From Thalassolituus maritimus (GTDB lineage Bacteria > Pseudomonadota > Gammaproteobacteria > Pseudomonadales > Oceanobacteraceae): a DNA stretch of 64,000 bases. The position numbers and the translations under genes are program-made. Where the stretch lies: positions 62,001 to 126,000 of the forward strand of contig NZ_FTOH01000001.1 of assembly GCF_900156675.1 (NCBI RefSeq). The letters run 5' to 3'. The notes under the pieces were generated by a model that ran no database searches, had not been told where the DNA came from, and saw only the letters and a list, made by a program, of their open reading frames with translations. Below are positions 4,690 to 25,096 of the stretch, piece after piece (the first letter of the stretch is position 1; each line of letters begins with the position of its first letter).

Positions 4690-6718
<2,029 letters not shown>

Positions 6719-14776: not shown

Positions 14777-15202
14777 TTACAGCTGCTTTTTAACGGTGTC
14801 GGTGCCATCGATAAGAAGTTCTGATCTACCTATCGTATTAACAACAATATCGCCGTCTTCAGCCTGGTCATCATTACCCTCAGCGATTAGCTCAACGCAA
14901 ATCGCCAGACTGACTGTATTTCCATCGTCGTCCGTACATTGTCTTGCGCTTATGCTGTAGAAAGTACTATCCAGGTTGTCGGCGTCCAGCCCGAGTGTAG
15001 TGAGATCTGCAGCGTATTGTCTGTTCGCCAGAAAATACCGCTCCTGAGCATTCAGGAGTAACTGGAGGCGATCGTAGGCGGTAGACCGATTCCCCTGTTG
15101 CACCCAGTTCTTATAAGAGGGCAGTGCAACAGAGGCCAGGATGCCGACGATGGCGACAACAATCATTAGCTCAAGTAAGGAGAAACCCGCTCTTCTCGAC
15201 AT
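14777..15202 (-). CDS. pilE: Type IV minor pilin, PilE-like
   Basis: Minor pilin thought to sit in the pilus tip or priming complex. The prepilin peptidase site is RRAG followed by FSLLELMIVVAIVGIL, with Glu at mature position 5 and the long hydrophobic helix. The C-terminal part contains one Cys pair (QCTDDD and AICVEL). At 141 residues it is the usual length. It is the last gene of the operon; its ATG overlaps the pilY1 stop by one base. In Pseudomonas the same gene sits next to ispH. Confidence 0.9.
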   Translation of the reverse strand: MSRRAGFSLLELMIVVAIVGILASVALPSYKNWVQQGNRSTAYDRLQLLLNAQERYFLANRQYAADLTTLGLDADNLDSTFYSISARQCTDDDGNTVSLAICVELIAEGNDDQAEDGDIVVNTIGRSELLIDGTDTVKKQL

Positions 15203-18200
15203 TATTCTTCTTTCCAGTAGTTGAACTTAAAGGTGTCGCATGAATTTGTGAAGCTGGAGCTGAGTGTCGTGCCAGACAAAATATCATAGGTGTAGTCTTC
15301 ACAGTCACAATCAGCTGGATTGTTGATACAGTCTTTTTCACCGTTTTCACCTGTGTTTCCATTCCATCCACCTCCAGTGATGGTTGGATCAGGTTTCAGC
15401 CTGGGGACTTCACCGCGACCTTCGGGCGTCTCATCCTGCGCATCGCACTCGTCACCACATTTAGCCTTAGCTGCTGCAGTGATTGCCAGTGTGAATGTTC
15501 TCGAAAAACCAAGGTTGCCTGAGCATTGTGCAGCGTCCAGGTCACTTGTTGGAGCAAACGTATTGAATGTGGTGATTTCGCTTAATGTTAATGACGGACT
15601 CAGCACTTTTTCACCACTATTCGTGAGTGATACTACCCAACCATTACTGCTACCGGTTGGACTGGAAGCCTCATCTGTTCCCCATTCTGCGAGATCTGAC
15701 GATAGCAGGGTTGTGTACGTCTCTGGGGCCACAATACCATGCGGATCTTTAATCAGATAGAACTTGTCATTCACTCCGGTATTTAGAGGGTGCGCTCGAT
15801 ATCCTGAACCAATACTGATCAGAATATAGTTCTCATCGCCTTCTTCAAAATACGCTATATCAGGTTTGTTGTAGAAGCGTCGGTTGCCGGACAGACCATC
15901 GACATCACTGGTGTTGATATCGGCAATAATGCCGCCGGTTGCAGAGAACGTTTCAGTATCGTTGAAATCAAATCTCCAGATGCGACCACCGACATCTGCT
16001 GCGTAAAGGAGATCAACCGTGCCATTCGCATCAACATCAATGGGGGTTACGTCTGCTGCGAAGCTACTTGTCATTTTCTCATCCATTCCGGACACGTCTT
16101 CAAGTGCATTCCACAGTACTTCCCCAGTCTCCGCATCAATCATGTAGATAGTGTTTCCGATGTCATGAGTAATGCGGGTCTCAGGGCCAGTCAGGTTCGT
16201 TCCATCTTCGTCCGGGTCATAACCGCCACCTGCAAAAAGAACTACCTTTTGAGTATCTTCATAATTTACCAATCCTGGGCGCAGTGCAGACCATGTCTGC
16301 CCAAGTGAGCTATACCCGTCACTGACGGCAGGTGCGTTTTTGGTAATTGAATCCGTGTATGGGCCATGTTGTTCCCAGGCCAGTTCAGGGTTGTAGGGAT
16401 CAGAAACGTCGAATGCATAGTAACTATGTCCACCGCGGCGGAGGCCTACGTAGAGGTAGATAGTTTCTTCCCCATCTACAGTACCATTGTAATTGGTATC
16501 GTTATGCCAATAGGTGATTGGACCGTCGATACCATAAATTTTCTCTGCATAGCCGTTATCTTCACCGTCTACGTAGAACAGAGGGTTTCTGAGAACTTCC
16601 CGTGGGATCAGAGAGAAAACTTCCTTACCGTTTTCAGTATCGAAAGCATGCAGGTAACCACTGTTTGTACCTACATAAACGATCTTTCTCTCGTCTGCAT
16701 AGTTAATCACCACTGGACGACTATGAATTGGATCTTCGATTTCGAGTCGTGCTGTATCGTCAGCATTTTTACCGGTTATCCACTTGGCAAGTCGCTGCTT
16801 AGCACTCAGGTTAAGGTCAGGCAGCGATAACAATGAGTCGTCCTGCAATAGCTCCAGGCCGAGAACATCGTCAGACAGCGCTAGGATGCTTTGTTCGGTC
16901 AAAGCCTGAACTGTGCTTCCTGAAGTTGTGAGAATATTACGTGCCTTGTCACCAAGACGCTCAGCGGCTCCGCCTTTGCTCACCTCGGCACCGTCAATAG
17001 TATCGCTCCAGTAACTGACCGCCGTTTCATTAAAGTACCCCGAATCCGGGTCTACTGCAGGATTTCCGTACCTGTCGAGAACGCCTTGTGAGCTAACACT
17101 ATAGCGCTTCAGGTTACCGCTCCAGGTGCCGTCCTCTCGTGGTTCAAATACCGCGTAATACAGTTCATCGCTGAGTTCGAGGCTATTGTATGAACTCACT
17201 GCAATCGCGGGAGAGGTGAAGGTTGCTGGATCGCTCAGAACATCGCCGGCGAGCTCCTGAGTGAAAGATTCAACAAGGTCTTCATAGTTGTCGGCAAGAT
17301 AGAATTTACCGCCACCTGCTTCGGCAATATCTTCTAATTTCTGCTTAGCCGTCTCATCGGCTGAAATAAAGCCACCAATAGTGCTTACAGTAATATTCTG
17401 ACGACCGATGATATCGTCTCTGTGGTCGTAGTTATTCAGGTAATAAGCCAGCTCCTCTGCGCACTCACCACCAATATTGCTTGAAGTTTCGCAGTAGTAA
17501 TTGAGGTAAGTAGCTGAGCCCAATGTTTTACCAGAGATCAGAGCCTGGATGTCGCTGCTCGCATTGTCATACCCAGATGGCGCACCATCACTGAAATAAA
17601 CAATCTTGGTTGATGGTTCACAGCCATCGAACTCGGGAGCATTGTAGGTCCAGCCTGTGCGTGAGCCAGATGAGCTACTGGTACCGACAACTTCGAAGTT
17701 TCCAGTGGCACCGTTATTGTATCTTATAGCTTCAATGATACCGGGATTAGCTGGGTCGTTTTCATCACGCCAGTCTGGGTCGATAGGGTCGTACCAAGTA
17801 GCATAATGTGCAGACTTTCCATACTTGACATTACCACCACTAAGATAGCGGTAAGCCTCATACAAACTCTGTTCAATAGGTGTGCCACCCAAGGCATCGT
17901 AGGAGTCGATAGCAGAGTCAAAATCGTCTCCAAGCTCGGTGACAGGGGTCATCGGAAGATCAACGTATGCACCGTCACCATTTTTCCAGCCGCTTGAGTA
18001 ATAGAAGCTATTGAAGCGCATCAGCGCAACACTCTTATTTGGCGAAGACATGGCGCCGACAACATCTTTCGCTGCCTGTTTCACCACATCAATCCGCATA
18101 ACTTTTTGCTGATTACCAAGGTCTGAACCGCGGTAATTCAGATAGTTACCTGACCAGATCACATTGTAGGTGGAATTATCCCAGTCATAGGAGGTGTCGG

Positions 18201-18822
18201 TGTAATCCCAGACAAAACAGGGAAGCCAGCCGCCTCCAAGCAGGCAGGCTCCACGGACGCGTCGTGTGTTGGTGTATGGGTAGCTGAATTCTGTCCACCC
18301 TGCTGCATTAACAAGGTAGTCATAATTCGAGCCGCCGTAGTTGTAATCCCCTGATTCACGACACTGGAGGATGGAGCCGCTGGCAGTACTGACGTCTGAG
18401 CCTTCCCAGCCATGACCCGGCTCAAAGAATGAGTATGTATTAGAGCTGAAGCCGGAGTTTACAATATCATTATTAATTGCACCTGAACTGGAGCAGTTCA
18501 GGGCGCTCAGTGAAATTTCGTTAGCCTTAATAGCGGCTACTTCACTGTTAGTCAGTGCCTGAATATCACCAACACTCTCACTGCGGTACAGGTAATAGGA
18601 ATCGGCTGCGAAACCATAGGCCTCGTAGGTCACTGATGGATCATAGGGCGGTGTATCTGTGTCATTCGCCCAAGCGGACATACTGCCTGAGGTATCCATA
18701 ATCAGAAGAATATTCTCATTACCGGCGCCGCCTCCGCCGGTGAAAATTTCAGTATCATCCGCCCTAGTAACGGAACTAATAACGAGGAGCGATGCTATTA
18801 CAGCGTATTTAGAAATCGTCAT
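15202..18822 (-). CDS. pilY1: Type IV pilus tip adhesin/biogenesis factor PilY1
   Basis: PilY1 associates with the minor pilins at the pilus tip and works in adhesion, surface sensing and pilus extension. A signal peptide (about residues 1-21) is followed by a von Willebrand factor A-like domain with the MIDAS start DTSGSM at 43-48. The C-terminal PilY1 beta-propeller covers roughly residues 680-1100, with repeated VYVGTNSGYLHAFD-like strands. Two EF-hand-like calcium loops are visible near residue 775 (DTNYNGTVDGEE) and residue 928 (DVDANGTVD). The Cys-rich tail (six Cys near the end) is unusual. The length of 1206 residues fits the family. Confidence 0.93.
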   Translation of the reverse strand: MTISKYAVIASLLVISSVTRADDTEIFTGGGGAGNENILLIMDTSGSMSAWANDTDTPPYDPSVTYEAYGFAADSYYLYRSESVGDIQALTNSEVAAIKANEISLSALNCSSSGAINNDIVNSGFSSNTYSFFEPGHGWEGSDVSTASGSILQCRESGDYNYGGSNYDYLVNAAGWTEFSYPYTNTRRVRGACLLGGGWLPCFVWDYTDTSYDWDNSTYNVIWSGNYLNYRGSDLGNQQKVMRIDVVKQAAKDVVGAMSSPNKSVALMRFNSFYYSSGWKNGDGAYVDLPMTPVTELGDDFDSAIDSYDALGGTPIEQSLYEAYRYLSGGNVKYGKSAHYATWYDPIDPDWRDENDPANPGIIEAIRYNNGATGNFEVVGTSSSSGSRTGWTYNAPEFDGCEPSTKIVYFSDGAPSGYDNASSDIQALISGKTLGSATYLNYYCETSSNIGGECAEELAYYLNNYDHRDDIIGRQNITVSTIGGFISADETAKQKLEDIAEAGGGKFYLADNYEDLVESFTQELAGDVLSDPATFTSPAIAVSSYNSLELSDELYYAVFEPREDGTWSGNLKRYSVSSQGVLDRYGNPAVDPDSGYFNETAVSYWSDTIDGAEVSKGGAAERLGDKARNILTTSGSTVQALTEQSILALSDDVLGLELLQDDSLLSLPDLNLSAKQRLAKWITGKNADDTARLEIEDPIHSRPVVINYADERKIVYVGTNSGYLHAFDTENGKEVFSLIPREVLRNPLFYVDGEDNGYAEKIYGIDGPITYWHNDTNYNGTVDGEETIYLYVGLRRGGHSYYAFDVSDPYNPELAWEQHGPYTDSITKNAPAVSDGYSSLGQTWSALRPGLVNYEDTQKVVLFAGGGYDPDEDGTNLTGPETRITHDIGNTIYMIDAETGEVLWNALEDVSGMDEKMTSSFAADVTPIDVDANGTVDLLYAADVGGRIWRFDFNDTETFSATGGIIADINTSDVDGLSGNRRFYNKPDIAYFEEGDENYILISIGSGYRAHPLNTGVNDKFYLIKDPHGIVAPETYTTLLSSDLAEWGTDEASSPTGSSNGWVVSLTNSGEKVLSPSLTLSEITTFNTFAPTSDLDAAQCSGNLGFSRTFTLAITAAAKAKCGDECDAQDETPEGRGEVPRLKPDPTITGGGWNGNTGENGEKDCINNPADCDCEDYTYDILSGTTLSSSFTNSCDTFKFNYWKEE

Positions 18823-18832
18823 TTTTGACTCC

Positions 18833-19321
18833 TTAGTTCGCGTTGTTAAAGGTCTTGATTTTGAAACCCATTAACTGATTGGAAGAGAATCTTTCAGTCT
18901 GGTCTTTCGAATTGGCAGTAAGCTCGAAGTTTATCCAGCTTGATTTGCCGGAAGTTGATCCCTTCATAAGGCTATTGTTAAGGCCAGTGCCGATCATGTT
19001 GGTTACTTTTACTGAGGTCTCAACGCTACCAATTTTGGTTCCCGCAGTTTCAACCAAAGGCTCCAACTCTTCTGAAGTTCCATTGGCTACTTTCGTACGT
19101 GCATTATGCAGGGGGGCAGATGTCAGCTGCTTGTCCTGGAATACGCTGAACTGGCTTTTCAATTCGCGGTTGGTTGTCGTAAAAACCTCCTCGCGGATCT
19201 GAAAGTTGTTAACAATTTTTAGCTGAGTCGTTGACCCCTGCAGGCTGACCACCGCGAGTAAGGTCACTGCAGTGAGCATGCCGATACTGACTATCAGTGC
19301 ACTACCTTTCTGACTTTTCAT
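18833..19321 (-). CDS. pilX: Minor pilin PilX
   Basis: PilX is a GspK-like minor pilin of the tip complex. After a short basic leader, KG is followed by SALIVSIGMLTAVTLL, with no Glu at mature position 5, as is common in the PilX/GspK group. The frame is open further upstream, to 19438, but the start at 19321 overlaps the pilW stop by four bases (ATGA) and gives the usual short leader, 162 residues. It lies between pilW and pilY1. Confidence 0.85.
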   Translation of the reverse strand: MKSQKGSALIVSIGMLTAVTLLAVVSLQGSTTQLKIVNNFQIREEVFTTTNRELKSQFSVFQDKQLTSAPLHNARTKVANGTSEELEPLVETAGTKIGSVETSVKVTNMIGTGLNNSLMKGSTSGKSSWINFELTANSKDQTERFSSNQLMGFKIKTFNNAN

Positions 19322-20175
19322 ATCGCGGAATCCTCTCTCAAGTTCATGAGGGCTGTGGTTGTTGTAAACACCTGCCTGGCAACTCTGTCGGTGACATCCA
19401 GTGGTTGTGAGTCCAATACCTGAATCTGTTTTCTCCACGGGCTACCAGCACTTTCCTCTGCTGCGCGCGTAGTTATTGCCAGGCGTACAGAGTAAATACG
19501 ATTCCAGCTGTCTACCTGATCAGCGTTTACGTACTGTCTTACGGCCAGAACCTCCTTGCTGTCAGGAGGTCTGTCGCTCTCGCCATAGAGTGCGTGTATT
19601 GATAACACTCCTGATGCCAAAGACTGGGCGTTACCGAAGCCTGCTCCTGCAGCTCTGATAGTGCCATTTTCGTCGTATGTCTGGCATCGAAGATTACTCA
19701 ACCCGTTAACTTCTTCGACCCAGTATGCATCGACGACAACAACATCCTCTACGATTGCGTTGCCATCAGTATCTGTTAATTCGGCCCCTGCACACGACAC
19801 TGGCACAGGGTCCCCAGCTTCTTCAGCCGCTTCAGCAACACGCCGAATCGCAATTCTGTCGCCAGTACCATTACTAACTTCACGGCTGCACAGGAAGTCA
19901 TCAACAGCAGCGCAGAGCCCGGGGAATGGGTCAAAACCACTTGTCACGTCCGGGCTGGGGTTAAAACCCGCCCTGAGAATTTGCCTGTGCAAATAGTCCG
20001 CAACGAAGCGCCCCGTATCTTGTGTATCGCCCAGGGTATCTGATGTTGAGGCTGCGCGGTTACTGGCGATCAGAATACCGCCAATGGCATAAATCAGAAT
20101 GGTGCTCAATAACAGAGATATCATCAGTTCGACAATCGTAAAACCGTTCTGGCGCGAGTGGTTAATGATCTTCAT
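19318..20175 (-). CDS. pilW: Minor pilin PilW
   Basis: Minor pilin with the prepilin site NG followed by FTIVELMISLLLSTIL, Glu at position 5, and a globular domain of about 250 residues. PilW is the largest of the four core minor pilins and is related to GspJ; the 285 residues here fit. Its start overlaps the pilV stop by four bases and its stop overlaps the pilX start, so the whole block is translationally coupled. Confidence 0.88.
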   Translation of the reverse strand: MKIINHSRQNGFTIVELMISLLLSTILIYAIGGILIASNRAASTSDTLGDTQDTGRFVADYLHRQILRAGFNPSPDVTSGFDPFPGLCAAVDDFLCSREVSNGTGDRIAIRRVAEAAEEAGDPVPVSCAGAELTDTDGNAIVEDVVVVDAYWVEEVNGLSNLRCQTYDENGTIRAAGAGFGNAQSLASGVLSIHALYGESDRPPDSKEVLAVRQYVNADQVDSWNRIYSVRLAITTRAAEESAGSPWRKQIQVLDSQPLDVTDRVARQVFTTTTALMNLREDSAI

Positions 20176-20756
20176 GGTCTGAATACCACCGTATATGACT
20201 CTCTCTGCTGATCGAGTAGCTCACCATCTTCTTTATAGTAAACGGCATTGCCGTCTGCATCTGTACCGCTGGTACGGGAAGTCCAGCTGATGGTGATATT
20301 GTATACATCACCATCTACGGTGCTGATGAGCAGACCTGGCTCGACAATATTTGATGCAGAACTACTCATTTCTGTGGAGCCCAGGACGGCAGATGTACCA
20401 CACAGGGCTTCCCATACATCAAATTGTGCAAGCGTCTGGTTGGTACAGTTTGCCGCAGGTTCTTGCTGGACAGCATCACTGAATGTTGAAGCGCAGAGGA
20501 GTAGGTTGTCAGGCATGTCTTCACAGCGAAGTTCAGCATCACCCGGATTGAGATATGAATCGATGCCTGCGCCGTTTGCGCGCATACGGTTCATCAGATC
20601 ACTGGCAACCCAGATCGCATGGCTTCGGTTACCACTGTCTGAAACTGCCCGGATCGACTCCAGCTGAAGGGCGCTTAAGCCCAACAAACCGACCGTTGTT
20701 ACGGCGAGTGTGACGAGTACCTCCCAGATACCCAGCCCTTGCATATAATATTTCAT
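20172..20756 (-). CDS. pilV: Minor pilin PilV
   Basis: Minor pilin related to GspI. The leader MKYYMQG is followed by LGIWEVLVTLAVTTVGLLG. If cleavage is after MQG, the mature protein starts with Leu and has Glu at position 5. The usual residue 1 is Phe or Met, so this is an atypical prepilin site. The C-terminal part includes NITISWTSRT and four or more Cys. I chose the ATG at 20756 because it overlaps the upstream pseudopilin stop by four bases; a longer frame to 20831 lacks a leader-like start. Confidence 0.85.
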   Translation of the reverse strand: MKYYMQGLGIWEVLVTLAVTTVGLLGLSALQLESIRAVSDSGNRSHAIWVASDLMNRMRANGAGIDSYLNPGDAELRCEDMPDNLLLCASTFSDAVQQEPAANCTNQTLAQFDVWEALCGTSAVLGSTEMSSSASNIVEPGLLISTVDGDVYNITISWTSRTSGTDADGNAVYYKEDGELLDQQRESYTVVFRP

Positions 20757-21220
20757 TGGCAATCTACCGCTGTTCTGATGATCTGACCTGAGATCATCAA
20801 TTGAAAGGATGCGTCTCGCGAGCCTGTGCATCCTGAAGTACTGATATTGATTGTCCCCGGCGTCGTGATAGAGCCAGTAGGGGAGAAAGTTACACGATTC
20901 AGGTTGTCAGGGGAGGTAATGGTTACGCCAGTATCCAGGGCACCCCGCTGTTTGAGCACATCTCCAGTCGATTGAGAAACAACCTCCCAGCCGTTACTTA
21001 TATCGTTGTTTCTTTCCTGAAGACTCACAGTATCGCCCTTCGTTACCGCATGGCTTCTTGCATACGTGAGGTCCATTTCAAACAGAGCAACCACACTGCG
21101 AGCGGTACCATTCGCATTGAGAGTGCGGAATGACGGCACGGCAACGGCAACGATAATCCCAAGAATCGATATCGCTATAATCATCTCTACTAACGTGAAA
21201 CCGTGATCGCGTGTTCTCAT
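20753..21220 (-). CDS. GspH/FimT-type pseudopilin (FimU/FimT group)
   Basis: A 155-residue pseudopilin with leader MRTRDHG and FTLVEMIIAISILGIIVAVAVPSF. The GspH/FimT domain follows, with ARSHAVTKGDTVSL and the C-terminal Cys pair (SGCTGS and AVDCQ). It directly precedes pilV with a four-base overlap, the position of fimU in Pseudomonas, so it may be the true FimU equivalent. The second copy upstream is similar in type but longer. Confidence 0.85.
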   Translation of the reverse strand: MRTRDHGFTLVEMIIAISILGIIVAVAVPSFRTLNANGTARSVVALFEMDLTYARSHAVTKGDTVSLQERNNDISNGWEVVSQSTGDVLKQRGALDTGVTITSPDNLNRVTFSPTGSITTPGTINISTSGCTGSRDASFQLMISGQIIRTAVDCQ

Positions 21221-21359
21221 TATGCTGCTCTGTGCCCACTCAGAAAAAGCCTATTCTACACTATGAGATAGTATTAACTTCGTGCGCTGGTTCCGAATGC
21301 GCTCAGATAAACGGCAGGAATTCCGAACTCAACGGAGCTGGCTGGCGCGAACAGTCATA

Positions 21360-21941
21360 TCAGGTGCAGTCAACGGGGTCTCCACTACTGGATTCTACCA
21401 GTCCGTCGTCGTCCTGATCCTTCCCCATGCGGATCCTTCCTGATCCAGATATGATGATGGTTGCTGATAAATTCGGGGTGCTTCTGAGACAGACTTTCAT
21501 CGTTCCATTTCGACCAAAAGCACTACCTGAGGGATAGAACATGACTGCGCTTGATCTGTTGAAATCGCGTATCAGGTTTGAAGAGTCTCCGGAGAGTGCA
21601 GGCAATACTTTGATAATAACTTCATTCTCATCCAGTGACCCACTCCTGTCCGTATCCGCAAAAATACTGAGGCTGTTGCTCCATTGATCCGAGCAGTTGC
21701 CCAGGTTGTCCAGCGGACACAGACTCACAGCCTCTCCTCGATACACCGCCATTGACCGACTGAGTGCGACGGCCCGGTGCAATGCTGATACCTCTGCCTC
21801 GAACTGGTTGCGTTCGATCAGTGCTCCCATTGCTGGTAGTCCGACTCCAAGGAGTATTCCGCTGATCGCCACCACGACCAGCAACTCAAGTAAGGTGAAG
21901 CCTTTGATGGTATTCTGTACCAGTATTGTTCCGGTGTTCAT
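21360..21941 (-). CDS. GspH/FimT-type pseudopilin with an EF-hand loop
   Basis: First gene of the minor-pilin operon in the reading direction. The leader ends KG and is followed by FTLLELLVVVAISGILLGVGLP. A GspH/FimT domain follows (HRAVALSRSMAVYRGEAVSL). Residues 96-107 (DTDRSGSLDENE) match a canonical EF-hand calcium loop at positions 1, 3, 5, 6, 9 and 12. A second, less perfect one (DQDDDGLVE) lies near residue 175. At 193 residues it is longer than a typical FimT. A gap of 139 bases separates it from the next pseudopilin. Position suggests fimT. Confidence 0.82.
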   Translation of the reverse strand: MNTGTILVQNTIKGFTLLELLVVVAISGILLGVGLPAMGALIERNQFEAEVSALHRAVALSRSMAVYRGEAVSLCPLDNLGNCSDQWSNSLSIFADTDRSGSLDENEVIIKVLPALSGDSSNLIRDFNRSSAVMFYPSGSAFGRNGTMKVCLRSTPNLSATIIISGSGRIRMGKDQDDDGLVESSSGDPVDCT

Positions 21942-22090: not shown

Positions 22091-23443
22091 CTAATCAATG
22101 GCGAGCTTTTTCAATCTGTATCTTAACGCACGAAAGCTGATGCCAAGGCGCTCTGCCGCGGCGGTTTTGTTCCAGCGGGTCGCGTTCAAGGCCTCTTCAA
22201 TTGCTTCCCGTTCCAGTCGTTCGAGGTACCCTTCCAGGTCACCGACGGCTTCACTATTGGAGTGATAGCCACCTTGCGGCGTTTCCGGTTCAAAACTCAG
22301 GTCGCTTAGTTGAATCTCTTCGCCCTCCATGAGCGTAAAGGCTCGTTGAAGTATGGCGTCGAGTTCGCGGGTGTTTCCAGGGAAGTCGTATTCGCTGATA
22401 GCCTGCAATGCCTCATCAGAGACCGATACTTCGGGCATATCCCATTGGCTGGCATAGGTCTGTAGCAGGTGGGTGGTGAGCTGCGGGATATCTTCACGGT
22501 GAGTGCGTAATGGTGGCACGCTGAGGTGTACTACGCGAATGCGGAACAGCAGATCCTGGCGGAAATGACAAGCACTTGCCAATGCCGGCAGGTCTGCGCT
22601 GCTGGCACTGATAATACGGACGTCCAGATCCTGTTCTTGTGCGTCATGCAATGCCCTGACTTTCTTGTCTGTCAGGAGTTGCAGAAGTTGAGCCTGGAAT
22701 TCCGTACTGAGATGTTCGATGTTATTCAGAAACAGCGTGCCCAGATTAGCGTTCTGGACAAGGCCATGATGCAGAGTACCGCTGTCGTCGCAGTAGCCGA
22801 ATAGGGTTGCAGCGGCGTTCTCGTCCTGAAGGGCGTCGCAGTTGACCGTTATAAAAGGATGAGTCGCTCGCGTACTGAGCAGGTGAATAGCTCGGGCAAT
22901 GCCTTCTTTACCGGTACCATATTCGCCCTGAATAAATACCGGTGCCTGGGTACGGCCGACTTTGCGCAGTGTCGTGCGCAACTCTTTCATTGGGCTGGAG
23001 TCACCAATAATCAGGTTGGTGCACTGTTCCGGGAGTGTGCCCGTTACTTTTGACAATCGTAATGCAGCTGTCGCCAGATTTCGCAGCTGTTGAATATCCA
23101 GCGGCTTGGCTACGACATCGAAAGCGCCCGCTTTAAGGGCGTTCACACCGACTTCCATATTGCCGAATGCGGTGATCATTGCGACCGGCATATCAGGATA
23201 GTTGCGATTGCAGTGATGGATTAGTTGAACACCATCACCATCAGGTAATTTCATATCCGTGATGCAGAAATGGAAATTTCTCGATTCAAGCAATGCCATG
23301 GCTTCAGTGACATTGGCAGCCTGCTCGCATTGGATGTCTATGCGCTCCAGTGCCATGCCTATCAACGCGCGAATATCCTGCTCGTCATCGACAATCAGTG
23401 CGCATAAGTCCGGCAACATCGCTGTGGTTTTCCTGTCTGTCAT
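22091..23443 (-). CDS. pilR: PilR-like response regulator with a degenerate AAA+ domain
   Basis: NtrC-type architecture: receiver domain (Asp63 in ITDMKLPD), AAA+ domain (about 145-370), and a Fis-type helix-turn-helix at the C-terminus (NKTAAAERLGISFRALRYRL). PilR normally activates sigma-54 transcription of pilA with PilS. Here the Walker A motif is intact (GEYGTGKE, 173-180). However, the GAFTGA sigma-54 contact loop is replaced by YCDDSG (217-222), and the Walker B acids are Asn240-Asn241 (TLFLNN). The arginine-finger region (FRQDLLFRIRV) remains. It can probably bind DNA but is unlikely to remodel sigma-54 holoenzyme. Order and position next to pilS support the name. Confidence 0.85.
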   Translation of the reverse strand: MTDRKTTAMLPDLCALIVDDEQDIRALIGMALERIDIQCEQAANVTEAMALLESRNFHFCITDMKLPDGDGVQLIHHCNRNYPDMPVAMITAFGNMEVGVNALKAGAFDVVAKPLDIQQLRNLATAALRLSKVTGTLPEQCTNLIIGDSSPMKELRTTLRKVGRTQAPVFIQGEYGTGKEGIARAIHLLSTRATHPFITVNCDALQDENAAATLFGYCDDSGTLHHGLVQNANLGTLFLNNIEHLSTEFQAQLLQLLTDKKVRALHDAQEQDLDVRIISASSADLPALASACHFRQDLLFRIRVVHLSVPPLRTHREDIPQLTTHLLQTYASQWDMPEVSVSDEALQAISEYDFPGNTRELDAILQRAFTLMEGEEIQLSDLSFEPETPQGGYHSNSEAVGDLEGYLERLEREAIEEALNATRWNKTAAAERLGISFRALRYRLKKLAID

Positions 23444-23500: not shown

Positions 23501-25012
23501 TTACGCGCATTTCATGTCAATCGAAAAGCGCGCTCCTGGATGGTTACCAATAAACTCTATCGTTGCCTGGTTGGCCTGACACAGTTCGCGACATAAATAG
23601 AGCCCTAAGCCGGTACCGTCGTGCTCAGTCGTGCTGAAAGGCTCAAACAGTCTCGATATCTGGTTCTCGGCTATGCCGAAGCCATTGTCTGTGATTTCAA
23701 TGGATACGCTACTCCCGGACTCTGACAGTATACGTAAGACTACTTCAGCATCCTGCTCCCGGGCCTTCCTGGCATGGCGCAAGCCATTCTGACATAGGTT
23801 AGTCAGGACTTGATTCAGATGATCCGGGTCAAACAGTACTGTTAAATTGCTGCTGGTATCACAGGAGAACTTCAGACAATTCTCACCACTGGCGTGATGG
23901 AAGTTCTGGCAAAAGTTCTGCACGTAACTATGTATTTTTACAGGTGCTGAAGCGGGGCGCTTGCCTCGAGAGAGCTGTAGGATGTCCCCGATAATCCGGT
24001 TAATTCGTTGGCTGTTGTTCTCAATTATCGCAGTCAGTTTTTTATCTTCAGCGGGGAGGTGATCAGATTCGTCCAGAAGTTGTGCGGCCTGATTCAGTGC
24101 TGAAAGTGGGTTACGTATTTCATGGGCAATACTAGCGGTCAGGCGACCTAAGGATGCCAGTTTGGCTTGCTGAACTTCCGCTGAGAGGCGTGCTTCGTCT
24201 TCAATGAGCAGTAAAAAATCGTCATCTGGTCCATCGGTCTCCAGACGTGTGACGGTCAGGCCCTGCAGTTTTCCCTGGGGGCTGGCATGAGACGGCGCTG
24301 CCATGAGCCATTCAGGTACTGCGGCACCGGGTTGCAGCTTAAACCAGGAGGTCGCAGTGTCATTAATAAACAGAATCTGTTTGTCTTTCGTACAGGCAAT
24401 GATGCCGTCGGGCAGTTTCATCAATGCCTGCTGACTCAGACGCTGCAAACGCTGGACGTCGCGGGCATTGTCCTGAGCGAGGCTGAGTGCCGCATTGATC
24501 CGGTGGGATAGCAGCTGAGTTAACCAGGCGAGAGCAAAGCAGATGCCCCCATACACACCGGTATTGGCTGTATCCCTGATGCCAAACTCGCCCGGTGCGA
24601 TATGTTCTGTATAGATGACTGCAAGACTGAGCCAGGCAGCAACGCTGTACCCCAGTATGCCCGGGGCGAGAAGGTTGGCCATAACGACTGGAATCAGCAA
24701 CAGGCTTGAGAAGCCGGCAGTCAGTCCGCCTGATGCGAACATCAGGCCGGTCAGCAGCGCTGTTTCGAGAAACAGGTAAGTGGTAGCACCCTGCGAATCG
24801 GTTGTCCGGGTTATTAGGGCGACGAAGACCGCGGCTGCAAGCACATAAAGCGATGAAAGAACGAGAAAGAGGTGGGGAGCCTCTTTACCAACGATGACGT
24901 CCATTGAATCGAGACCGTCGACGACGACAATCGACAAAGCAAGAATCAGCGAATAGTAGCTGTATAGCGACAGCAGGCGACTGCCCCGTCCGATGGAAAT
25001 TGGATGATTCAT
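23501..25012 (-). CDS. pilS: Sensor histidine kinase PilS
   Basis: Membrane sensor kinase partner of PilR that controls pilin expression in Pseudomonas. Six hydrophobic segments occupy roughly residues 15-170, followed by a PAS-like linker. The HisKA motif is SIAHEIRNPLSALNQ. The HATPase domain shows NLCQNGLRHA (N box), DNGFGI (G1) and GTGLGLYLC (G2). All kinase motifs look intact, in contrast with the altered PilR. The frame is open to 25072; I prefer the ATG at 25012 (MNHPISIGRGSR), giving 503 residues. It is divergent from nadE with an 84-base gap. Confidence 0.88.
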   Translation of the reverse strand: MNHPISIGRGSRLLSLYSYYSLILALSIVVVDGLDSMDVIVGKEAPHLFLVLSSLYVLAAAVFVALITRTTDSQGATTYLFLETALLTGLMFASGGLTAGFSSLLLIPVVMANLLAPGILGYSVAAWLSLAVIYTEHIAPGEFGIRDTANTGVYGGICFALAWLTQLLSHRINAALSLAQDNARDVQRLQRLSQQALMKLPDGIIACTKDKQILFINDTATSWFKLQPGAAVPEWLMAAPSHASPQGKLQGLTVTRLETDGPDDDFLLLIEDEARLSAEVQQAKLASLGRLTASIAHEIRNPLSALNQAAQLLDESDHLPAEDKKLTAIIENNSQRINRIIGDILQLSRGKRPASAPVKIHSYVQNFCQNFHHASGENCLKFSCDTSSNLTVLFDPDHLNQVLTNLCQNGLRHARKAREQDAEVVLRILSESGSSVSIEITDNGFGIAENQISRLFEPFSTTEHDGTGLGLYLCRELCQANQATIEFIGNHPGARFSIDMKCA

Positions 25013-25096
25013 TGGTCTTTCATTGGTCTTCCGGTTTGCGTCCTGACGCGTATTTCCAGACAATACGCGCATTACTGAAGAGAGTACCCCCAGACC

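Follow-up and report, generated by a model that had tools for sequence, protein, structure and literature searches.

The locus under study lies in a window of 64,000 nucleotides (the whole stretch of DNA that was analysed) from a genome that is 99.93% complete (G000), and comprises pilR and the adjoining pilS, with the following features.

22091..23443, minus strand: pilR, encoding an NtrC-type response regulator of 450 amino acids (ORF, Pfam domains, orthologues in relatives)
23075..23398, minus strand: receiver domain of PilR, residues 16-123 (Pfam, alignment, re-translation)
23255-23257, minus strand: phospho-acceptor Asp63 of PilR (re-translation)
22904..22930, minus strand: Walker A of PilR, QGEYGTGKE, residues 172-180, including Lys179 (alignment, re-translation)
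22778..22795, minus strand: lost L1/GAFTGA loop of PilR, now YCDDSG, residues 217-222 (alignment, re-translation)
22721..22726, minus strand: lost Walker B of PilR, now Asn-Asn, residues 240-241 (alignment, re-translation)
22541..22561, minus strand: R-finger region of PilR, RQDLLFR, residues 295-301, kept (alignment, re-translation)
22361..22378, minus strand: sensor II of PilR, GNTREL, residues 356-361, kept (alignment, re-translation)
22106..22174, minus strand: Fis-type helix-turn-helix of PilR, residues 424-446, nearly as in intact PilR (Pfam, alignment, re-translation)
23501..25072, minus strand: pilS, encoding a sensor kinase with a PilS-type transmembrane domain, HisKA and HATPase (ORF, Pfam)

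We identified the gene as pilR because it was the best match among relatives and had pilS next door. Its product matched Response_reg, Sigma54_activat, AAA_lid_14 and HTH_8 of Pfam, all above cut-off, and has the parts that define a PilR, namely a receiver with its phospho-acceptor Asp, an AAA+ core and a Fis-type helix-turn-helix. As for the hallmarks of a sigma-54 activator, Walker A, the R-finger and sensor II are in place, and two are missing: the Walker B Asp-Glu pair and GAFTGA, the element by which NtrC-type activators contact sigma-54. Where orthologues carry GSFTGA or GAFTGA the window protein has YCDDSG, and its alignment with intact orthologues, which read FGHxKGSFTGAxxDKxG...GGTLFLDE from the loop to Walker B, placed a deletion of four residues directly after the changed loop. 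Re-translation of the window confirmed both replacements reported by the first-pass annotation (YCDDSG at residues 217-222 and Asn-Asn for Asp-Glu at 240-241), and its statements that Walker A, the receiver Asp and the Fis-type helix-turn-helix are present (Pfam, alignment) and that pilR adjoins pilS (at 23501-25072, with kinase domains by Pfam) also held. Having lost GAFTGA and retained its DNA-binding domain, the protein belongs with the GAFTGA-less NtrC-type regulators. An AlphaFold2 model (mean pLDDT 88.7, 35 sequences) predicted a folded AAA+ core in which a short hairpin, residues 216-226, replaces the loop, and the nearest full-length solved fold to this model was that of NtrX, followed by NtrC1, LuxO, VpsR and FleQ. 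Downstream of pilR on the same strand, a pilus gene cluster (15202-21941; ORFs, Pfam) holds two GspH/FimT-like pilins, a PilV-like protein, a PilW-like protein and a 1206-aa ORF, which we take to resemble PilY1.

Our family set comprised 44 genomes, 40 of which had a PilR orthologue, and we read all 40. The loop was absent from nine (G000, G008, G001, G005, G002, G003, G015, G011 and G063), each with pilS beside pilR. On a tree built from the receiver, helix-turn-helix and PilS columns, leaving out the AAA+ domain, the losses mapped to four distinct branches: a clade of six same-genus genomes (support 100), whose sister is the intact same-genus G006; G015, which lies outside the clade holding G006 and groups with that clade with support 95; G011, paired with intact G014 (support 94); and G063, paired with intact G062 (support 100). 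The orthologue alignment proposed by the first-pass annotation thus showed a shared loss: of the seven same-genus genomes with a PilR, six have it, and it arose independently in three further lineages. A switch away from sigma-54 would, on this tree, have occurred at least four times in the family. The Walker B acids were gone from eight of the nine loop-less proteins; that of G063, which has GGMIPDR for its loop, an intact Walker B DE and in-frame codon substitutions with no frameshift, apparently represents an early stage of loss. Among the 80 named loci listed of 462 in a wider scan, two lacked the loop by text pattern, those of G002 and G011; for order-level relatives, the PilR sequence was read in 4 of 21 genomes. 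The wider scan also turned up a PilR from Halopseudomonas pertucinogena with EAFTGA in place of GAFTGA and an intact Walker B.

A sequencing error or frameshift was rejected as the source of the change, given the full-length frames, the in-frame codon changes and the differing replacement sequences of nine genomes. More broadly, several relatives have been assembled as drafts or from metagenomes, which would suit a sequencing or assembly artefact, but the occurrence of the loss in nine independent genomes, including the single-contig genome G015, makes such an artefact vanishingly improbable.

The pattern of substitution in the loop-less proteins spoke to their state. Two relatives with PilRs 93% and 92% identical to that of the window showed a loss of this kind with their reading frames at full length, and across the receiver, AAA+ and helix-turn-helix regions these three genes differed at synonymous sites in proportions of 0.55-0.81, versus 0.010-0.060 for amino-acid-changing differences. 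All nine loop-less PilRs were full-length frames. Over residues 205-245, their agreement with the intact-family consensus was 0.32 (n=9), as opposed to 0.87 for intact proteins; agreement in the receiver was 0.69 versus 0.72 and in the helix-turn-helix 0.85 versus 0.87, and elsewhere in the AAA+ domain the sequence had drifted (0.51-0.58 versus 0.72-0.78). The change in loop-less PilR is local. Within residues 205-245, non-synonymous differences were 0.07-0.14 among G000, G008 and G001 and 0.165 for the pair of G062 and G063. Six intact pairs gave 0-0.061. In the receiver and AAA+ domains dN/dS was 0.015-0.06 in pairs for which it could be computed, the highest intact pair reaching 0.10. The DD, D, T and K positions of the receiver were kept in all nine orthologues, as was the Walker A Lys179. 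Judged by these sequence comparisons, loop-less PilR is not a dead gene. Because the Walker A Lys is kept throughout, nucleotide may still be bound, and because the Walker B acids are absent from eight of the proteins, hydrolysis of ATP by these eight is unlikely.

We then turned to pilA, which sits between nadC and pilB. The PF00114 pilin model did not match pilA in the window genome, and the gene was therefore assigned by similarity and by its position next to nadC and pilB. To score the sigma-54 element we scanned 260-300 nt upstream of pilA for the 10 positions of TGGCAC-N5-TTGC, with GG-N10-GC fixed. Five of the 31 intact genomes (G056, G058, G025, G029 and G057) were excluded, their pilA not having been found or fetched, and three genomes in which no PilR was found were kept out of the comparison (G007, G004 and G060, with scores 0, 7 and 9; G004 is 80% and G060 71% complete). 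Where pilin genes stood in tandem (G016 and G020) we used the first, which has the palindrome described below upstream, the second genes scoring 8 and 6. All 26 intact-PilR genomes with pilA found had the element (9/10 in 25 and 8/10 in one), and it was counted in none of the nine loop-less genomes, eight of which scored 0, 4, 5 or 6. The ninth, G011, had an 8/10 match 253 nt upstream of the start codon, beyond the palindrome and out of the old -24 register, and in a longer stretch G015 gave a score of 7 at -288; in dinucleotide shuffles a score of 9 was reached in 59 of 11400 and a score of 8 in 362 of 11400. The upstream region of the window genome's own pilA scored 5/10 and so does not qualify as a sigma-54 target promoter. 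The first-pass annotation had pointed to -24/-12 elements before pilA as a thing to look for, and the answer was absence in the window genome and all nine loop-less genomes and presence in all 26 intact ones examined.

The association between promoter and PilR loop was strong with G011 counted as lacking the element (Fisher p = 1.4e-8) and under stricter counts (p = 1.4e-7 at threshold 9, and 3.8e-7 at raw threshold 8). To allow for the non-independence of relatives, we distributed four losses randomly over the 66 branches of a tree of 34 genomes (leaving out G022, whose PilR is truncated at a contig end and for which no pilS was fetched). The nine observed tips were reproduced in 2 of 400000 trials, or in 3 of 400000 when weighted by branch length. 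In G063, the missing pilA promoter had been noticed before its PilR was read. Comparison of the pilA promoter of G062, TTGGCACACTCTTCGC, with that of G063, TTGGCACACTTTCTTC, revealed that the -12 half alone is gone in G063, and TTGGCA, the -24 half, is retained by every one of the nine loop-less genomes. Together, these results establish that the pilA promoter lost its sigma-54 element together with the PilR loop, in four lineages.

What had not been lost was a palindrome upstream of pilA, GTGAC-N7-GTCAC, which matched at 9 or 10 of 10 positions in each of the nine loop-less genomes and is presumed to be the PilR site. In these genomes its centre lay 110 bp from the -24 box in seven (including all six of the same genus), 109 in one and 112 in one; the spacing was 111-112 in intact G006, G014, G031, G064, G027, G061 and G062, and ranged from 82 to 151 in other intact genomes. 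Among the six same-genus genomes, 9 of the 10 half-site positions were invariant, compared with 7 of 40 positions directly upstream. Genome-wide in the window genome, the loose pattern was not enriched (6 places, compared with 15 per strand for a backwards control), and a form with an AT-rich half centre occurred at 3 places, compared with 1 control match.

The same-genus genome G007 (95% complete, leaving some room for a missed pilSR) had neither pilR nor pilS that we could find, and its pilA upstream region had no -24/-12 element (there being no -12 box) and no palindrome. Where the regulator is gone, the palindrome is gone too, and G007 appears to be the end point of the process. This genome favours a reading in which decay is in progress, pilA being constitutive and PilR a relic heading for the loss already seen there, as do the drift of the AAA+ core outside the loop (0.51-0.58 versus 0.72-0.78) and the precedent of pathogenic Neisseria, whose pilE became constitutive after losing sigma-N control (PMC6755734). 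A relic, however, would hardly be expected to match intact PilR in its receiver and helix-turn-helix, to keep full-length frames in six species whose PilRs are down to 57-58% identical, or to preserve half-sites at 9/10 invariant positions against 7/40 upstream at a spacing of 110 in all six same-genus genomes, and we regard ongoing decay as quite unlikely.

Sigma-54 itself is still present: rpoN was found in 54 of the 55 genomes searched, including all eight loop-less ones in that search (G063 lay outside it), and loss of rpoN was rejected as the cause for those eight. The window genome encodes five other strong sigma-54 activators, all with Walker A, GAFTGA or GSFTGA, and LDE, and all intact non-orthologues of PilR. 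The first-pass annotation had also suggested looking for a second, intact PilR; none was found in the window genome, and a second PilR was rejected as an explanation, the five other activators not being PilR. Perfect -24/-12 elements stand 22-56 nt before glnA, fliL, pseB and a sensor-kinase gene, the last near two of the five intact activators. Exact matches to -24/-12 were not in excess genome-wide (13, compared with 12 for the backwards pattern), so the count is uninformative and only the four named sites are useful. With rpoN and five intact activators at hand, and with the R-finger and sensor II kept in the window genome's PilR, loop-less PilR might in principle serve sigma-54 by a cryptic route, for example in mixed rings with an intact activator. 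The pilA promoter has no -12 box in nine genomes of four lineages, however, and we consider any such route very improbable.

We therefore asked what could read pilA now. All nine loop-less genomes have TTGC-N17-TGG-CAnACT, in which an extended -10-like element overlaps the old -24 box and which is weak against the sigma-70 consensus. A sigma-70-like TTG-N16-TTGG register was shared by every loop-less genome (nine) and every intact genome of genera g1, g5, g7 and g8 (11). Genera g2, g3 and g6, in which no loop loss was seen, had it in register in none of their 15 intact genomes, with one out-of-register match in G009. A consensus scan of the window genome's pilA upstream region picked TTGGCA-N16-CATTAT (9/12, with a mean of 0.3 in shuffles), and both candidate sigma-70 promoters use the old -24 box. 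The weak sigma-70-like promoter persists in G007.

Our preferred explanation, which we hold to be probable, is that PilR has become a PilS-controlled, palindrome-bound regulator of pilA that is decoupled from sigma-54 and works with the sigma-70 polymerase. The proposal of the first-pass annotation that the protein regulates by a mechanism other than sigma-54 is supported by the sharing of the loss, the lack of a second PilR and the missing -24/-12 element. In the mechanism that we envisage, PilS would phosphorylate PilR, as the intact receiver and kinase suggest, and PilR would bind its old palindromic site upstream of pilA, as the conservation of that site suggests. The L1 loop and Walker B acids of PilR would have decayed and, in step, the pilA promoter would have lost its -12 box, with a housekeeping polymerase of the sigma-70 type presumably reading pilA from a promoter overlapping the old -24 box and PilR modulating this polymerase by contact from the old upstream site. 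The switch would have happened without loss of rpoN in the genomes tested. At pilA, PilR is more likely to be an activator than a repressor, because its site lies upstream at a constant spacing and the promoter is a weak one. Counting against this explanation, a sigma-70 activator would not usually be sited as far upstream as the palindrome, at ~125 bp.

The three places with an AT-centred palindrome in the window genome were pilA, a gene encoding a REC-PAS-GGDEF protein and an AraC-type regulator gene. We take the REC-PAS-GGDEF gene for FimX; its fetched part has no EAL domain. In G000, G008, G001, G005 and G002 the palindrome stands 31-32 nt before TATAAT of this FimX-like gene, and intact G006 has a weaker copy in the same place. 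The site was not seen in G003, in which the stretch with a palindrome-like match held no FimX match, and the gene was not found in the stretches fetched near rpoN from G007, G015, G017 and G023, so the site is known only within the genus. The AraC-type site recurs in G008, G001, G005 and G003, a few bases before a TATA-like box, and was not seen at the AraC-type gene of G002; in G007, none of the pilA, FimX-like and AraC-type sites was seen. PilR probably regulates the FimX-like gene as well, a tentative assignment in which it would act likewise from a palindrome just upstream of the TATAAT promoter. Because the loose palindrome is not enriched and because no FimX-like site was seen in G003 and no AraC-type site in G002, a regulon beyond pilA is tentative. 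At the AraC-type gene (G000:C18:532896), the palindrome lies inside a strongly conserved block, GGTAACAGGTGAC...GTCACCCG, in five loop-less genomes. At the FimX-like gene of G002, it is extended to a long perfect inverted repeat, TGACAGCATGTGAC...GTCACATGCTGTCA, which may have a role as a hairpin.

These sites bear on a different account, in which PilR is now a repressor or looping factor, the sigma-70 promoter of pilA firing by itself and PilR lowering or timing its firing from upstream, perhaps with the participation of weaker half-sites nearer the promoter. Because the same weak promoter persists in G007, which lacks PilSR, the pilA promoter may need no PilR, as this account would have it; the AraC-type palindrome, a few bases before its TATA-like box, is in a position suiting repression; and the GAFTGA-less NtrC of Caulobacter represses sigma-70 genes, although it also activates glnBA (PMC10274813). 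The pilA site, however, lies far upstream at the spacing of its sigma-54 relatives, and the FimX-like site just upstream of its promoter, both activator-like places. We consider repression or looping possible but rather unlikely, and continue with PilR as a putative activator acting through the sigma-70 polymerase.

How the same switch could have recurred is addressed by a reading that we put forward tentatively, at somewhat below an even chance: the ancestral PilR would have worked in two modes, activating pilA through sigma-54 and regulating the FimX-like gene through sigma-70, and the ancestral pilA promoter would have been composite, its -24 box doubling as part of a sigma-70 promoter. Pre-adapted in this way, the loop and the -12 box could therefore be lost together four times with the regulator kept. 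The restriction of the TTG-N16-TTGG register to g1, g5, g7, g8 and the loop-less genomes suggests such a composite promoter, and the presence of the FimX-site core in intact G006 points the same way. If true, the family would be a repeated natural experiment in the conversion of enhancer-binding proteins to sigma-70 regulators: G063 (Walker B intact) would represent an early stage, the window, G015 and G011 late stages, and G007 (pilSR gone) an end point. FleQ, a near fold to the window PilR model, combines both modes in one protein; unlike FleQ, the window protein would be left with the non-sigma-54 mode only. In Pseudomonas, FleQ is an NtrC-type protein that also regulates outside the sigma-54 mode (PMC10723142).

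In pilS-pilR gene order, domain order, receiver, helix-turn-helix and the position of pilA between nadC and pilB, the system resembles known PilSR systems, among which PilR of Pseudomonas aeruginosa, Xanthomonas and Kingella acts through sigma-54 (PMC6058289, PMC8657755), but it differs from them in that the window PilR has no GAFTGA and no Walker B acids and its genome's pilA no -24/-12 element. The NtrC proteins of Caulobacter and Rhodobacter capsulatus, which have lost GAFTGA and are reported to act on sigma-70 promoters (PMC10274813), are likewise two-component response regulators without the loop; they differ in being another orthologue with other targets, and in the present case the loss is recent, occurred four separate times, has close intact sisters for comparison and is matched at the promoter. 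A proper GAFTGA is also absent from VpsR of Vibrio cholerae, TyrR and DhaR of E. coli, HupR of R. capsulatus and YplP of B. subtilis (PMC3162934). VpsR is among the nearest solved folds to the window PilR model, but unlike the window protein none of these is a PilR, and PilR is not mentioned in that paper. In Neisseria, pilin control, which in commensals depends on sigma-N and a response regulator, has shifted to sigma-70 in the pathogens (PMC6755734, PMC6528607), and in meningococci rpoN is broken and Npa truncated (PMC6755734); unlike in that Nps-Npa/pilE system, rpoN stays in the genomes tested here, and both the regulator and the site that it presumably binds have been retained.

In the part of the literature covered by our search we found neither a GAFTGA-less PilR nor a repeated co-loss in protein and promoter. 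GAFTGA-less NtrC-type regulators are a kind already known, to which the repeated, matched loss in PilR and the pilA promoter belongs. GAFTGA loss is known from single, old, scattered proteins, which has made a sigma-54 activator's change of role hard to study. The PilR losses are recent and repeated and have intact sisters, and at a single target gene the regulator can be compared directly with the promoter. For annotation they carry a warning, in that the presence of rpoN, pilS and pilR does not imply sigma-54-controlled pili.

Two further elements were evident in the upstream regions of pilA. In regions including L173 at ~6100-6210, a conserved AAAAANGTGA is followed by an AAGCCC-N7-GGGCTT inverted repeat, just before the -35-like TTGC; this block is found in intact and loop-less genomes alike and is a possible site of another regulator. 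Many pilA leaders, both intact and loop-less, also have a small inverted repeat, GTCAT-n5-ATGAC, after the -24 box.
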